Shown: piece by piece, positions 7,112 through 12,057 of the stretch
Numbering within the stretch: the stretch's first letter is position 1
Layout of the letters: every line of letters begins with the position of its first letter
Assembly (NCBI GenBank): GCA_025925615.1
Contig: JAICLN010000077.1
Span: 1 to 12,073, forward strand
Direction: 5' to 3'
Origin: Actinomycetospora sp.
GTDB lineage: Bacteria; Actinomycetota; Actinomycetes; Mycobacteriales; Pseudonocardiaceae
Length of the DNA stretch: 12,073 bases
The notes under the pieces: model-generated
Told to the model about the DNA's origin: nothing
Seen by the model: the letters and a program-made list of their open reading frames with translations, nothing else
Databases searched by the model: none
Position numbers and translations under genes: made by a program

Positions 7112-8211
7112 CGGCGGTCCGCGTGACCGACGACCCGCCCGACGTCGACCCGGGCCACGACGTCGACCCGGGCCACGACGTCGACCCGGGCCACGACGTC
7201 GACCTGGGCCATCACGGCGACGCCGAGGTCGGCCCGGGGCTGGTCGACCTCGCGGTCAACGTCCGCTCCGGTACGCCGCCGGCCTGGCTCGCGGCGCGCC
7301 TCGCGGCGTCGATGGGTGGGTTGGCCGCCTACCCGGACGCGACCGCCGCCCGCGTCGCCGCGGCCGCCGCGCACGGCCGCACCCCGGCGCAGGTGTGGCC
7401 GGTCGCGGGCGTCGCGGAGGCGTTCGTGCTGCTCGCCCGGGCCCTGCGCCCGCGGCACGCAGTGGTCGTCCACCCGCAGTTCACCGAGCCCGAGGCGGCG
7501 CTGCGCGCGGCGGGCCACGCGGTCGACCGGCTCGTCCTCGACGGCGGGTTCACGCTCGACCCGGCGCGTGTGCCGGTCGATGCCGACCTCGTCGTCGTCG
7601 GGAACCCCACCAACCCGACGTCGGTGCTGCACCCGGCGGGGACGGTGGCCGCCCTCGCCCGGCCGGGCCGCGTGCTCGTCGTCGACGAGGCCTTCGCCGA
7701 CACCGTGCCCGGCGAGCCGGAGTCGCTGGCGGCGCGCGACGACCTGCCCGGCCTGGTCGTGCTGCGCAGCCTCACCAAGACCTGGGGACTCGCCGGGTTG
7801 CGGGTCGGCTACCTCCTGGCCGCGCCGGACCTGGTCGACCGGCTCGCCGCCGCGGCCCCGCCCTGGTCGGTGTCCACCCCGGCCCTGGCCGCCCTGTCGG
7901 CGTGCACGACAGCGGGTGCGCGGGCCGAGGCCGACGTGGCGGCCCGCTCGCTGGCGGGCGACCGGGCGCACCTGCTCGCGGGGCTCTCCGGCATCCCCGG
8001 CGTCGAGGTGCGGGGGGAGCCGGCGTCGAGCTTCCTGCTCCTGCGCACGCCGGGCCGTCCCGACGTCCGCGGCCTGCTGCGCGAGCGCGGCTGGGCGGTG
8101 CGGCGCGGGGACACGTTCCCGGGTCTCGACGGCGAGCACATCCGCGTCGCCGTCCGGGACCGGCCGACCTCCGACGCGTTCGTCGCGGAGCTCGCCGCGG
8201 TGCTGCGGTGA
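7108..8211 (+). CDS. cobC: CobC, threonine-phosphate decarboxylase-like PLP enzyme
   Basis: A 367-residue class I/II aminotransferase-fold protein of the Rv2231c-like CobC type. CobC (CobD in Salmonella) decarboxylates L-threonine O-phosphate to aminopropanol phosphate, the lower-ligand linker of B12. Typical segments are present: DLAVNVRSGTPPAWL near the start of the domain, NPTNPT (166-171), VVDEAFAD with Asp193, the PLP lysine in SLTKTWGLAGLRVGYL (Lys224), and C-terminal HIRVAVRD with Arg346. Before the domain there is an odd extension in which DVDPGH is repeated (residues 12-35), explained by an 18-bp DNA repeat. GTG 7108 overlaps the stop of the upstream gene and has GGGAGG (7098-7103). 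The next gene also starts by a GTGA overlap. Decarboxylase activity is inferred from context, since the family resembles histidinol-phosphate aminotransferase. Confidence 0.9.
   Translation: MTAVRVTDDPPDVDPGHDVDPGHDVDPGHDVDLGHHGDAEVGPGLVDLAVNVRSGTPPAWLAARLAASMGGLAAYPDATAARVAAAAAHGRTPAQVWPVAGVAEAFVLLARALRPRHAVVVHPQFTEPEAALRAAGHAVDRLVLDGGFTLDPARVPVDADLVVVGNPTNPTSVLHPAGTVAALARPGRVLVVDEAFADTVPGEPESLAARDDLPGLVVLRSLTKTWGLAGLRVGYLLAAPDLVDRLAAAAPPWSVSTPALAALSACTTAGARAEADVAARSLAGDRAHLLAGLSGIPGVEVRGEPASSFLLLRTPGRPDVRGLLRERGWAVRRGDTFPGLDGEHIRVAVRDRPTSDAFVAELAAVLR
7141..7212 (+). repeat. Four tandem 18-bp repeats encoding DVDPGH
   Basis: Units at 7141-7158, 7159-7176 and 7177-7194 are identical (GACGTCGACCCGGGCCAC). 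The fourth, 7195-7212, differs at two bases and encodes DVDLGH. The period is six codons, so copy number can change without frameshift. The identity of three copies suggests recent expansion. Confidence 0.97.
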
Positions 8212-10091
8212 GCGCCCTCGAACCGGGCGACGCCGCGGCGCTGCACCGCGTCCTCGCGGCCCGCCGTGACGTGCGGACCGGCTTCACCTCCGAGCCGGTG
8301 GACGACGCCGTGCTCCGCCGGGTGCTCGCCGCCGCGCACACCGCTCCGAGCGTCGGGTTCTCCCAGCCCTGGGACTTCCTCGTGCTGCGCGACCCGGCGC
8401 TGCGCGCGGAGCTCGCGTCGCTGGCCTCGGCCCAGCGCGACGCCTTCGCCGCCTCCCTGCCCGCCGCCCGGGCCCGGACGTTCGCCGGGCTGAAGGTCGA
8501 GGCGATCCGCGAGGCGCCGCTCGGCGTCGTCGTGACCTGCGACCCGACCCGCGGCGGCCGCCACGTGCTGGGCCGGCAGACCCAGCCCCGGATGGCGGCG
8601 CACTCGGTGGCCGGGGCGGTGCAGAACCTGTGGCTCGCCGCGCGGGCCGAGGCCCTCGGCGTCGGGTGGGTCAGCTTCTTCGCGGAGCGCGAGCTGGCCG
8701 CGCTGCTCGGCGCCCGGGTCGGGATGCCGCCGCACCTCGAGATCGTCGCCTACCTCTGTCTCGGGCACGTGTCGGCGTTCGCCGACGAGCCCGAGCTCCA
8801 ATCCGCCGGCTGGGCCCGGCGCCGACCGCTGGAGTGGGCCGTGCACGAGGACGTCTGGGGACGACACGACGGCGGCGACGCCCTCGACGCGGCGGTGGCC
8901 GCCTGCGCGTCGCTCGACGTCGCCGAGGGGGAGGCCGCCGCCCGCGAGCGGTTGACCCGCATGACGGTGCCGTCCGGGGCGCTCGGGCAGGTCGCCGAGG
9001 TCGGGGTGCGGCTTTCTGGGCTCGCCGGGTCGTGCCCGCCGCCGGTGCCCGAGCCGGCCGTCGTCGCGGTGTTCGCCGGCGACCACGGCGTGCACGCCCG
9101 CGGGGTGACGCCCTGGCCGCAGGAGGTGACCCACCAGATGGTGGCCAACTTCCTGGCCGGCGGCGCCGCCGTGAACGCCTTCGCCCATCAGGTGGGGGCC
9201 GAGGTCGTCGTCGTGGACGTCGGGGTGGCGGCGACCCTGGACGAGGCGCCCGGCCTGCTGCCGCGCAAGGTGCGGCCCGGGACGGCCGACATGACGGCGG
9301 GCCCGGCGATGTCGCGCGCAGAGGCGCGGGCGGCGGTCGTCGCCGGCGTCGAGGTGGCCCGCGACCTGGTGGCGGCCGGCAACCGGCTGCTCGTGACCGG
9401 GGACATGGGGATCGCGAACACCACCGCGTCCGCCGCGCTGGTGTGCGCGTTCACCGGCGCGGCGCCCGAGGACGTCACCGGGCGGGGCACCGGGATCGAC
9501 GACGCGATGCTCGCCCACAAGACGGCGGTCGTCCGCGAGGCGCTGGCCCTGCACGGTCTGCTCCCGACCCCCGTTTCGAACGAAGGGCACCTTCGGTCGA
9601 ATAGATCGAGCGAAGGTGCCCCTCGCTCGGACTCCGCGGGGCCGGCGGAATCCGGCGATGGGCACCCCTCGGCGGAAAGATCGAGCGAAGGTGCCCTTCG
9701 GTCAGAACGGCTGCCGGCCGCCGCCGATCCCCTCGACGCCCTCGCGGCGGTCGGCGGGCTCGAGATCGCCGGGATCGCCGGGCTGCTCCTCGGGGGAGCC
9801 GCGCTGTGCACCCCCGTCGTCGTCGACGGTGTCGTCGCCGGCGCCGCCGCCCTCGTGGCCGCCGCGCTCGCCCCGACTGCGTCACACGCGTGGCTCGCCG
9901 GTCACCGTTCCGTCGAGCCGGCCCATACCCTGGCGCTGACCCACCTGGGGCTCGGGCCCCTGCTCGACCTCGGGCTGCGGGTCGGCGAAGGGACCGGAGC
10001 CCTCCTGGCGGCGCCGTTGGTCGCCGCCGCGGCGCGGGCGCTCGGCGAGGTCGCGACGTTCGACGCGGCGGGCGTCGCGAGCAAGGACTGA
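8208..10091 (+). CDS. bluB-cobT: BluB-CobT fusion: DMB synthase plus DMB phosphoribosyltransferase
   Basis: A 627-residue two-domain protein. Residues 1 to about 215 are BluB, which cannibalises FMNH2 with O2 to make 5,6-dimethylbenzimidazole. Visible are RRDVR with Asp21, APSVGFSQPW (46-55) and GWVSFF with Ser156, matching Asp32 and Ser167 of Sinorhizobium BluB at one constant offset. Residues from about 235 are CobT, which activates the base to alpha-ribazole phosphate: MTVPSGALG (252-260; usually TKPxGSLG), AGDHGVHARG (Asp292), GRGTGIDD and GEGTGA with Glu594, the expected catalytic base. Fusion of these consecutive steps is known in Propionibacterium freudenreichii (BluB/CobT2). Residues about 455-501 are an extra Ser/Glu/Gly/Arg-rich loop encoded by a palindromic element between EALALHG and DPLDALAAVGGLEIAG. 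GTG 8208 overlaps the cobC stop (GTGA). The frame is intact, so the enzyme may still work. Confidence 0.93.
   Translation: MSALEPGDAAALHRVLAARRDVRTGFTSEPVDDAVLRRVLAAAHTAPSVGFSQPWDFLVLRDPALRAELASLASAQRDAFAASLPAARARTFAGLKVEAIREAPLGVVVTCDPTRGGRHVLGRQTQPRMAAHSVAGAVQNLWLAARAEALGVGWVSFFAERELAALLGARVGMPPHLEIVAYLCLGHVSAFADEPELQSAGWARRRPLEWAVHEDVWGRHDGGDALDAAVAACASLDVAEGEAAARERLTRMTVPSGALGQVAEVGVRLSGLAGSCPPPVPEPAVVAVFAGDHGVHARGVTPWPQEVTHQMVANFLAGGAAVNAFAHQVGAEVVVVDVGVAATLDEAPGLLPRKVRPGTADMTAGPAMSRAEARAAVVAGVEVARDLVAAGNRLLVTGDMGIANTTASAALVCAFTGAAPEDVTGRGTGIDDAMLAHKTAVVREALALHGLLPTPVSNEGHLRSNRSSEGAPRSDSAGPAESGDGHPSAERSSEGALRSERLPAAADPLDALAAVGGLEIAGIAGLLLGGAALCTPVVVDGVVAGAAALVAAALAPTASHAWLAGHRSVEPAHTLALTHLGLGPLLDLGLRVGEGTGALLAAPLVAAAARALGEVATFDAAGVASKD
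9571..9710. mobile_element. Palindromic MITE-like element inserted in frame in the CobT region
   Basis: A 140-bp element. Its 25-bp ends (9571-9595 and 9686-9710) are inverted repeats with 22 of 25 matches; the inner 15 bases CGAAGGGCACCTTCG match perfectly. Inside are two related hairpin units offset by 75 bases (9581-9625 and 9656-9700), which share the 19-base direct repeat AGATCGAGCGAAGGTGCCC (9603-9621 and 9678-9696). A third hairpin, GGACTCCGC/GCGGAATCC (9629-9637 and 9645-9653), lies at the centre, so the whole is roughly a palindrome about 9641. Codon use differs from the host gene (AGA twice, CTT twice, AAT, TCA, mostly GAA for Glu). It encodes about 47 residues with two RSSEGAxRS copies and no stop. 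No transposase and no clear target duplication are seen; mobility is inferred from structure. Confidence 0.78.
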
Positions 10092-10122: not shown

Positions 10123-11355
10123 GTGAGCCCGGCCAGCACGCTCTACCCCGTCGGCCTCGACCTGACCGGTCGCCGCGTCATCGTCGTGGGCGGCGGATCG
10201 GTGGCGCAGCGCCGCGTGGCCGGTCTGCTCGAGGTCGGGGCGGAGGTCGTCGTCGTGAGCCCCGCCGTCACCACCGCGCTCGAGGCCGTGGCCGACTCCC
10301 GCGAGATCACGTGGGAGGCCCGGGAGTACGGGGCCGGCGACCTCGACGACGCCTGGTACGTGGTCGCGGCCACCGACTCGCCCGAGGTCAACGAGGCCGT
10401 CGCCGCCGCGGCCGAGGCCCGCCGCGTCTTCTGCGTGCGCGCCGACGCCGCCGAGTCGGGCACCGCGGTGACCCCGGCCGTGGGGCGCTACGGCGACGTC
10501 ACGGTGGGCGTGCTCGGCGGCGGCGATCCGCGCCGGGCGAGCGGGGTCCGGGACGGCGTCGTCGAGGCACTGCGCACCGGCACGCTGGCCGACCGGCGCC
10601 ACCGCGCGGTCAACCCGGGCGTGACGCTCGTCGGCGGCGGTCCCGGCGACCCCGGCCTCATCACGGTGCGCGGCCGGCAGGCGCTGGCGCAGGCCGACGT
10701 CGTCGTCACCGACCGGCTCGCCCCGCAGCGCCTGCTCGACGAGCTGCCGCCGGACGTCACCGTCATCGACGCCTCGAAGCTGCCCCGTGGGCGGTACATG
10801 AGCCAGGACACGATCAACGCGGTCCTCGTCGACGAGGCGAAGGCCGGGAACCGCGTGGTGCGGCTCAAGGGCGGCGACCCGTTCGTCTTCGGCCGGGGGT
10901 ACGAGGAGATCCAGGCCTGCGCGGCCGCCGGGGTCACCGTCGACGTCGTGCCCGGCGTGACCAGCGCGATCTCGGTGCCCGCGTTCGCCGGCGTGCCGGT
11001 GACCCACCGCGGGGTGACCCACGAGTTCGTCGTCGTCTCCGGGCACCTGCCGCCCGGCCACGCGGAGTCGCTCGTCGACTGGGACGCGCTCGGGCGGCTG
11101 ACGGGCACGATCGTGCTGCTGATGGCGGTGGAGAACATCGGGGTGATCGCCGAGGCGCTGGTCGCGGGTGGGCGCGACCCGGAGACTCCCGCGGTGGCCG
11201 TGCAGGAGGGCGGGCTGCCGGGCGAGACGACGGCACGGTCCACGCTCGCGAAGCTCCCCGGGGCGATCGTCGACGCGGGTCTGCGTCCGCCGGCCGTGAT
11301 CGTCGTCGGTGCAGTAGGTGCGCTTCGCGCTCGTGAGCACTTTCCGGGGCTATAG
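10123..11355 (+). CDS. cobA: CysG-type fusion: precorrin-2 dehydrogenase-like domain plus uroporphyrinogen-III C-methyltransferase
   Basis: A 410-residue protein in CysG order. Residues 1 to about 155 form a Rossmann domain (VIVVGGGSVAQRR, 19-31; FCVRADAAESG further on) like precorrin-2 dehydrogenase/ferrochelatase. Residues from about 165 form the methyltransferase that uses two SAM to turn uroporphyrinogen III into precorrin-2: VTLVGGGPGDPGLI (167-180), VVTDRL, SKLPRG, VRLKGGDPFVFGRG (246-259), VPGVTSAISVPAFAGVPVTH and LLMAVENI. It supplies the entry intermediate for B12 and also siroheme. A CysG-like synonym (cysG) applies. It lies 31 bp after bluB-cobT with its own Shine-Dalgarno, probably still in the riboswitch operon. 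The last seven residues (REHFPGL) and the TAG stop are read from a 42-bp palindrome, so the native C-terminus seems to have been replaced. Confidence 0.94.
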   Translation: MSPASTLYPVGLDLTGRRVIVVGGGSVAQRRVAGLLEVGAEVVVVSPAVTTALEAVADSREITWEAREYGAGDLDDAWYVVAATDSPEVNEAVAAAAEARRVFCVRADAAESGTAVTPAVGRYGDVTVGVLGGGDPRRASGVRDGVVEALRTGTLADRRHRAVNPGVTLVGGGPGDPGLITVRGRQALAQADVVVTDRLAPQRLLDELPPDVTVIDASKLPRGRYMSQDTINAVLVDEAKAGNRVVRLKGGDPFVFGRGYEEIQACAAAGVTVDVVPGVTSAISVPAFAGVPVTHRGVTHEFVVVSGHLPPGHAESLVDWDALGRLTGTIVLLMAVENIGVIAEALVAGGRDPETPAVAVQEGGLPGETTARSTLAKLPGAIVDAGLRPPAVIVVGAVGALRAREHFPGL

Positions 11356-11373
11356 CCCCGTAAAGTGCTCACG
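11332..11373. terminator. 42-bp near-perfect palindrome at convergent gene ends, likely bidirectional terminator
   Basis: The left half (11332-11352, starting CGTGAGCACTTT) and the right half (11353-11373, ending AAAGTGCTCACG) match as inverted repeats at 20 of 21 positions; the one mismatch is 11344/11361. The centre reads GGGGCTATAGCCCC. It spans the end of the CysG-type gene and lies 18 bp from the end of the convergent LiaF-like gene, the expected place for a shared terminator. There is no T-tract beyond it, so termination by hairpin alone, or a repeat-element origin, are both possible. Confidence 0.8.
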
Positions 11374-11387
11374 TGGCCGCAGGCCAC
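11373..11387. repeat. Second short inverted repeat next to the large palindrome
   Basis: GTGGCC (11373-11378) and GGCCAC (11382-11387) are perfect six-base arms around GCA, directly abutting the 42-bp palindrome and followed by CTAGCTAG (11388-11395), which carries the stop of the minus-strand gene. It may add to termination for both converging transcripts. Confidence 0.55.
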
Positions 11388-11391
11388 CTAG

Positions 11392-12057
11392 CTAGTCGTC
11401 GTGGTGGTGCCGCGCCTCGTCGCGCGCGGCCTCGGTGGCGGTCTGCACCTCGATGCTGCCGAACGCTCCGCGCCCGGACACCGCGACCTCCGGGGCGCCG
11501 GGCGGTGCGGCCGCGCACGCCGCGTCGCAGTTCGTGCTCCCGAAGATCGTCGTGCCGGACGTCGTGACGTGCGTGCCGTCGGGGACCACGACCTTCGTGG
11601 ACCCGAAGAGCACGCCGACCTGCACCGTGGACTCCCCGGGCGTGACCTGCACGGTGCGGCTGCCGAAGACGGCTGCGCCCTGGTCGGCGGTGGCGACCCC
11701 GGGCGCGACGATCGCGACGACGGCGATGACGACGGCCCCGACCAGCCCCTGCACGCCCCGTCGCCGGCCGACGTGGTCGTGGCGCTCCGGGCGCCGGGTG
11801 TCCTCGTGCCGCACCGGCTCGGCCGTCCGCGTCGGGGTGTCGTCGGGCGGTGGCGGGGCGGCCTCGTCCGGTAGGTCGGCCACCAGCGGCGCCAGCTCGC
11901 TGCGGAACCGGGCGCCGTAGGCGGCCTTCGCGCGCTCGTCGTACTCGACGAGGGTGAGCATCCCGGCGTCGTGGGCGGCGCGGAGCCGGTCGTCGATCTC
12001 GCGTCGTTCCTTGTCGCCGATCCGCAGCTCGCCGCTCTCCGCCCCCACGGCCGTCAT
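11392..12057 (-). CDS. DUF1707 / LiaF-like (cell-wall-active antibiotic response) membrane protein
   Basis: A 221-residue protein with three parts. Residues 10-62 are a DUF1707 domain (LRIGDKERREIDDRLRAAHD, then GMLTLVEYDERAKAAYGARF and SELAPLVADLP), expected in the cytoplasm. A Pro/Arg/His-rich linker leads to one membrane helix (about 101-124, GLVGAVVIAVVAIVAPGVA). The outer part has the repeated beta-strand motif FGS (131-133, 151-153, 172-174, 199-201) typical of the LiaF/Toast-rack fold, with a Cys pair (177, 181) in one loop. It ends in HHHDD. Related domains take part in envelope stress sensing, but no regulator gene is adjacent, so the role is open. The ATG at 12057 directly precedes the DUF1707 domain. 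It converges on the CysG-type gene across the palindromic terminator. Confidence 0.87.
   Translation of the reverse strand: MTAVGAESGELRIGDKERREIDDRLRAAHDAGMLTLVEYDERAKAAYGARFRSELAPLVADLPDEAAPPPPDDTPTRTAEPVRHEDTRRPERHDHVGRRRGVQGLVGAVVIAVVAIVAPGVATADQGAAVFGSRTVQVTPGESTVQVGVLFGSTKVVVPDGTHVTTSGTTIFGSTNCDAACAAAPPGAPEVAVSGRGAFGSIEVQTATEAARDEARHHHDD

Follow-up and report, generated by a model that had tools for sequence, protein, structure and literature searches.

In REPIN-RAYT systems, two inverted palindromes form one longer hairpin unit. Palindromes that code for part of a protein are best known from Rickettsia, and intragenic REPs from proteobacteria and a verrucomicrobium, according to the passages of PMC10969869 and PMC3733652 that deal with them. 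The Rickettsia palindromic elements (RPEs) are described there as palindromic sequences of about 150 bp that occur in several families per genome, many of them in frame in unrelated genes and encoding a conserved peptide (PMC10969869, PMC3733652). For REPs of the GTAG and CGTC super-families, the corresponding passages of PMC3733652 report convergent or 3'-end placement with many copies less than 20 bp from the end of an open reading frame, the occurrence of dimers, the supply of stop codons, and some copies within open reading frames. Intragenic copies are listed there for Opitutus terrae, Thauera, and recB of Xanthomonas, and in recB of two Xanthomonas differing REPs occur at about one site (PMC3733652). 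REP candidates have been counted in three Actinomycetota, as stated in part of PMC12306157. A word search for 'Actinobacter' in the main text of PMC3733652 returned nothing, and, judging by titles and the beginnings of abstracts, the literature surveyed contains no relevant case from Actinomycetospora or other actinobacteria.

The window analysed here, a stretch of 12,073 nucleotides from Actinomycetospora sp., stems from a draft assembly of 3.52 Mb in 382 contigs with a completeness of 59.8%. It encodes a BluB-CobT fusion protein (Table 1) that matches TIGR02476 (BluB, 252 bits) and TIGR03160 (CobT, 378 bits), both above the curated cut-off, as well as PF00881 and PF02277. The TIGR03160 match is split into two stretches. 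An earlier note, made from the sequence alone, had described a palindromic stretch at 9571–9710 that lies in frame within the CobT domain and adds about 47 residues. Two units of about 51 bp were indeed found in that stretch, and the reading frame remains open across the element. The interruption of the CobT domain was likewise borne out, and its size was corrected by the CobT alignment: the distance between the anchors is 267 nt in the window and 111 nt in the commonest short-loop CobT, corresponding to an insert of 52 codons. In the PDB alignment listed, CobT structure 1wx1 has no residues at the insert position. The AlphaFold model of the 383-aa CobT domain has a mean pLDDT of 84.4; its sole stretch of at least three residues with a pLDDT below 50 is the insert (residues 213–259, window 9576–9716). 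From its open frame, the element is predicted to be translated as part of the CobT loop. The window also carries four 18-bp tandem repeats, read DVDPGH, at 7140–7211 near the start of the gene preceding the BluB-CobT gene.

Table 1. Positions of the features discussed, in window coordinates.
Feature	Position	Strand	Basis
BluB-CobT fusion gene (5,6-dimethylbenzimidazole synthase and nicotinate-nucleotide-DMB phosphoribosyltransferase)	8208..10091	+	Family profiles, codon-model gene call
CobT loop, 52 codons longer than short-loop CobT	~9555..9725	+	Alignments with 17 congeners and other actinobacteria
Family A double palindromic element, predicted to read SNEGHLRSNRSSEGAPRS...SSEGALRS	9576..9704	+	Profile match, gene frame, repeat family in own genome and genus
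Unit 1, ~51-bp near-perfect palindrome	9577..9628	+	Covariance model R1, 68.0 / 71.3 bits on the two strands
Unit 2, diverged second palindromic unit, 75 bp from unit 1	9656..9706	+	Direct repeat D13, 78% to unit 1
Left inner arm, 15-mer CGAAGGGCACCTTCG	9581..9595	+	Exact match
Right inner arm, inverted 15-mer CGAAGGGCACCTTCG	9686..9700	-	Exact match
Family C palindrome, 80 bp, at convergent junction	11313..11392		Inverted repeat I2, 38-nt arms

The two units form a direct repeat (9581–9631 and 9656–9706) and, taken as a pair, one larger inverted repeat with arms of 37 nt (9564–9600 and 9681–9717) that are 81% complementary. The inner 15 bases, which the earlier note had given as exactly inverted, are so; the 15-mer recurs with one mismatch at 9611–9625 on the minus strand. 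Allowing up to three mismatches, the window contains seven matches to it compared to 0.68 expected, a number reached in none of 200 shuffles. The predicted fold of the 160-nt stretch has an energy of −95.4 kcal/mol (z = −5.46), and again none of 200 shuffles was as good. A chance palindrome is rejected by both shuffles. Identity with an Rfam family was also rejected, as no match at E≤1 occurs in 9400–9900. On our codon model the element scores −29.5, compared to +15.8 for the 40 codons preceding it and +13.6 for the 40 codons following it; its codons are therefore foreign to the gene, as had been proposed. The spacing of 75 bases between the units was confirmed as well, but its reading as an adaptation to coding, since 75 bases are 25 codons, was rejected: intergenic double copies of the same family often span 126 bp, equivalent to the spacing in cobT (15 of 27 in genome G000). 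A span of 116 bp is also frequent among intergenic double copies, chiefly in G003 and G007.

That the element is repeated in its genome had been put forward as a conjecture, and a search settled it. Searching its own genome with the 160-nt stretch gave at least 79 matches at E≤1e-3, each strand being counted separately and 40 of 75 candidates being scored. With up to 14 candidates scored per genome, the 140-nt element was matched in all 18 Actinomycetospora genomes, its own included, and in none of 43 other relatives, of which 19 belong to the same family. We refer to this repeat as family A. A covariance model was built from 40 units, all outside cobT. At E≤0.01 it gave at least 138 matches in G000 and at least 90 in G003, a genome assembled as one contig; at E≤1e-6 it gave at least 114 in G015 and at least 95 in G007, with 150 candidates scored per genome. 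Because palindromes usually match on both strands, the number of places is about half of these counts. Across the 40 units, 92.4% of the cells of 22 pairs are paired, 24 cells carry two-sided changes, and the covariation score is 0.093; for these three measures none of 500 shuffles was as high and six slid versions came nowhere near, in a control that ignores relatedness among the units. The other two of the five measures, pairs with two-sided changes (6; 78 of 500 shuffles) and further pair types (15; 247 of 500), did not exceed the shuffles.

Outside coding regions, family A has a pronounced preference for the ends of genes. Gene calls were made with our own codon-usage finder, trained first on genes of the window and afterwards on 80 fetched regions, and the census is a non-random sample, as regions were chosen by their best-scoring DNA, model, or protein matches; one query was a peptide that favours the coding frame and was the source of locus L338. 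In the fetched regions of G003 and G000, 65 copies comprised 34 between convergent genes, 22 between tandem genes, 3 between divergent genes, 4 at an edge, and 2 within genes. Among the 132 non-redundant copies from all genome loci examined, the corresponding numbers were 62 convergent, 53 tandem, 4 divergent, 5 at contig ends, and 8 intragenic. The distance to a stop codon was 5–25 nt in 117 of 180 cases (median 17), compared to 4 of 63 on the start-codon side. Convergent spacers made up 51 of 106 spacers with family A or the second family described below (B), compared to 26 of 228 element-free spacers of at least 50 bp (Fisher P = 7.7e-13). Given this placement, the family A hairpin probably serves to terminate or stabilise mRNAs at their 3' ends. 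A scan for T-runs, covering the consensus flanks and window 9400–9900, found none. Of the intergenic copies with a comparable locus elsewhere, 64 of 67 have A there also, indicating that most were inherited in place. Long open frames were rejected as proof of intragenic copies; a copy at C32 of G000, for example, lies in an open frame of 1347 aa and is intergenic, between tandem genes, according to the codon model.

The CobT loop occurs in four states among the 18 Actinomycetospora genomes. It is short in nine, contains the full A element in five (G000, G010, G001, G007, and G016) and a single short hairpin in two (G015 and G004), and in the remaining two (G003 and G014) it is occupied by a palindrome of about 49 bp that is unrelated to A and was termed family B. 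The frame is open in all nine carriers. In a tree of CobT without the loop, eight of the nine carriers, G004 being outside, fall into one clade (support 100/98); all eight genomes of this clade have an insert of some form, and the loop is short in nine of ten genomes of the other clade. The four states require five changes on this tree, in which the rows of G004 and G008 are partial and branching inside the clade has only partial support (88/77 for G001 with G014). Among the best 80 CobT loci of a named collection, the family A profile matched only L061 from Actinomycetospora sp. NBRC 106378. Neither of the outcomes that the earlier note had named as refuting it, the same loop in CobT proteins from many unrelated genera or a lack of further copies in this genome, was observed. 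The family B profile matched none of these 80 loci. One hairpin of the family A kind was seen by eye in CobT of Actinomycetospora MAG54. A single short anchor distance is common to 71 of the 80 loci (the anchor of L102 is false), and the insert as a general trait of CobT was accordingly rejected. The CobT of Actinomadura logoneensis (L064) has an unrelated loop, about 39 residues longer, at the same place, and the CobT loop therefore seems tolerant of inserts in general. In pooled pairwise counts from five genes, the CobT element showed pN 0.211, pS 0.303, and dN/dS 0.64, compared to dN/dS of 0.15 upstream and 0.07 downstream. Thus, the CobT loop is under weaker constraint than the enzyme.

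Family B is dispersed as well. In eight genomes searched, with up to 40 candidates scored in each, there were at least 42 matches in G003, 43 in G014, 31 in G001, and 39 in G016, and lower numbers of at least 12 in G007, 9 in G010, 3 in G015, and 3 in G000. A search with a second B copy matched 8 of 18 congeners, and these eight make up exactly the clade carrying the CobT inserts. Among the 43 other genomes, a single weak match (E = 2.6e-7) was observed at C77:70632–70678 of G060, a member of a different family of the same order. Called genes contain 10 of the 47 non-redundant B copies. Each of these ten is on the same strand as its gene, and all use one frame, reading REGNPxATRALxSSPH or a near variant. 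The hosts are a NuoE-NuoF-like fusion, two ABC transporters, CobT, a P-type ATPase, AnmK, a Ser/Thr kinase (two orthologues), a PKS-like protein, and an HldE-like protein; the names PKS-like, HldE-like, and CydDC-like, the last for one of the ABC transporters, are our reading of the sequences. In the two kinase rows (L389 and L381) the codon scores are negative after the element. Four of the six frames are open in 33, 30, 31, and 29 of 33 intergenic B copies, respectively, and the other two in 5 and 4. As four frames are usually open, the chance of finding nine distinct hosts in one frame is approximately (1/4)^8, or about 1.5e-5, if these frames are equally likely.

A similar bias occurs in family A. 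Seven of the eight intragenic copies are in one frame and read SEGHLRS...SSEGALRS or a variant. They are located in CobT (four non-redundant rows), in an ABC-F-like ATPase between the ATPase and C-terminal domains, in a heavy-metal P-type ATPase after the HMA domain, and in a linker of an NRPS, a name that is our reading, this copy having been found via the peptide query favouring that frame. The eighth copy (L286) is in a different frame of a weakly called gene (downstream score −9.0). Counting CobT once, twelve host genes have been found so far. Of all six frames, the one in use is the most hydrophilic both in the B consensus (GRAVY −1.41) and in the A element of the window (−1.39); the latter has a second stop-free frame that is almost equally hydrophilic (−1.25). 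Orthologues without the insert were found for all three hosts compared, namely CobT, AnmK, and NuoEF. AnmK was matched in 6 of 18 genomes, with the insert in G015 and G003 and a short turn in the remaining four. NuoEF has the insert in G003, G016, G001, and G014 and is without it in 14 of 18 genomes; in pooled pairwise counts from four genes, dN/dS was 0.42 in the NuoEF element versus 0.16 and 0.07 in the flanks.

Several of the proteins contain further repeat-like stretches. The CydDC-like protein (L383) has two copies of the insert GSSLSSGARTAP, and a P-type ATPase (L041) has an insert, SASSLSSSGRNATPS, similar to it. In the PKS-like protein (L385), the linker SDGAPRAVEPLVGAPR and two similar ones resemble a variant of family A and occur besides the B insert. 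Tandem repeats TGRAPLRSVSR and VELRSAPS are located between the HldE-like and dehydrogenase-like parts of L374, in a stretch that includes N bases.

A third palindrome, family C, lies in the window apart from the cobT insert and encodes the last residues, ALRAREHFPGL, and the stop codon of the next gene (10123–11355). Matches were obtained in all 18 congeners. Among 44 copies in 40 fetched regions and the window, 25 are convergent, 15 tandem, 2 divergent, 1 at an edge, and 1 intragenic, the last in a doubtful frame of 106 aa. The stop-side distance is exactly −2 in 36 of 66 cases, so that the end of the element shares the stop codon. Protein tails ending in EHFPGL are encoded alike by C in the window, L423, and L428.

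Based on these results, we consider it likely that the cobT insert belongs to a palindrome family that is REP-like and specific to the genus, and that this copy has been kept as a tolerated, disordered peptide. Family A resides chiefly just 3' of stop codons, where its hairpin probably functions at mRNA 3' ends. One copy would have entered a surface loop linking two helices of CobT, the simplest case being entry in an ancestor of one Actinomycetospora clade, and may have persisted because its orientation and frame give a stop-free, hydrophilic, and unstructured peptide that spares the fold. Filtering of this kind, in which a copy enters and survives in the one harmless frame, would also account for the A and B copies found in frame elsewhere, in loops and in linkers between domains. 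From the presence and absence of copies we infer that both families are mobile, presumably spreading as non-autonomous elements that use other enzymes. A RAYT was rejected as the mobiliser: PF01797 (Y1_Tnp), the only transposase family searched, gave no match in any of the 18 Actinomycetospora genomes at E≤0.001, and the same search matched 5 of 14 known genomes in a control.

The occupation of one CobT loop by A in G001, G007, and G016 and by B in G003 and G014 raises a different explanation, namely that palindromes are swapped at preset positions, after stop codons and in a few protein loops, and that A and B are alternative occupants of these slots rather than fresh random insertions. For 18 intergenic B copies another genome offers a comparable locus, and 11 of them face A without B in at least one genome; their own slots hold B alone in six cases and A together with B in five. 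Conversely, 13 of the 67 intergenic A copies that could be compared in this way face B without A, and in 12 of these cases the slot of the copy itself holds A and no B. Taken together, the two counts amount to about seven distinct slots, including L371/L218/L306/L267, L365/L216/L266, and L233/L346; in G015, one A unit followed by B is found where G000 has two A units. In three slots that were aligned, the flanking genes align and the slot itself does not, being too diverged for a target duplication to be read. These data hint at a mutual replacement of A and B at certain orthologous positions. However, the shares are inflated because the compared loci were nearly all fetched for holding elements, and the great majority of A copies face A in the orthologue. 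The same picture would result if a new copy were inserted beside an existing one and a copy were then lost, and slots holding both families do exist. We therefore regard replacement at fixed slots as the most serious competitor, yet an unlikely one, and rate slightly lower still the specific proposal that a mechanism recognising existing palindromes or hairpins exchanges unrelated families at preset slots including the cobT loop. If slot exchange were true, proteins would gain interchangeable, frame-filtered peptide cassettes, SEGHLRS...SSEGALRS or REGNPxATRALxSSPH.

Whether from A or from B, an insert is present throughout one clade, which would be expected if the translated loop had a selected function in regulation, partner binding, or solubility, more than being tolerated. 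The dN/dS values below 1 in CobT and NuoEF point in the same direction and may reflect some function of the loop. On the other hand, the loop differs in sequence and length between genomes, in G015 it holds just one short hairpin, and nearly all members of the other clade do without an insert; moreover, the host proteins are unrelated to each other and the insert is predicted to be disordered. A selected function thus appears improbable. We give slightly less credence to a role of the palindrome at the DNA or RNA level within cobT, as an attenuating hairpin, in mRNA stability, or as a protein-binding site, with the peptide as a by-product. The strong predicted hairpin and the placement of the family as mRNA 3'-end elements would fit such a role, while the loops of G015 and G004, which retain one short hairpin only, argue weakly against it. 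An ordinary variable loop with chance palindromy, or an assembly error, can be dismissed despite the long loop of A. logoneensis, as five genomes share the insert, none of the shuffles equalled it, and the dispersed copies refute this reading.

An actinobacterial genus with at least two families, twelve hosts, species with and without the insert, and a CobT with solved relatives makes it directly testable whether such peptides are harmless passengers or raw material for new protein parts, and what copies the elements. Annotators and structural biologists should treat such loops as repeat-derived.

How do these families relate to known systems? The designation as MITE-like in the earlier note holds in the wider sense: like MITEs, A is short, dispersed, and without a transposase of its own, and has inverted ends. 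A MITE in the strict sense is not supported: the orthologous slots are too diverged for a target duplication to be read, and the search for RAYT gave no match in the 18 genomes. Paired inverted palindromes as in A are also a feature of REPIN-RAYT systems, but Y1_Tnp had no match in the 18 genomes of the genus. A and B resemble REPs in their 3'-end and convergent placement and differ from them in their longer units and in the lack of a RAYT match; a conserved GTAG or CGTC tag is absent from the consensus of 363 A rows (strands apart) and of 49 B rows. The closest likeness proposed, that to RPEs, was upheld when judged by published descriptions rather than by sequence, including the use of one preferred frame in unrelated proteins. 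Like RPEs, A and B are dispersed palindromic families that occur in frame in several unrelated genes, each with one preferred frame, and have insert-free orthologues. Unlike RPEs, they are found in high-GC actinobacteria, their intergenic copies are mostly close after stop codons, and two families occur in one CobT loop. Since in-frame inserts, dimers, and stop-codon supply are described in the passages cited from PMC10969869 and PMC3733652, protein-coding palindromes as such are a known kind. As far as the literature surveyed by title, abstract, and passages shows, what is new are the families themselves, their in-frame copies in this phylum, and the use of one coding slot by two families.
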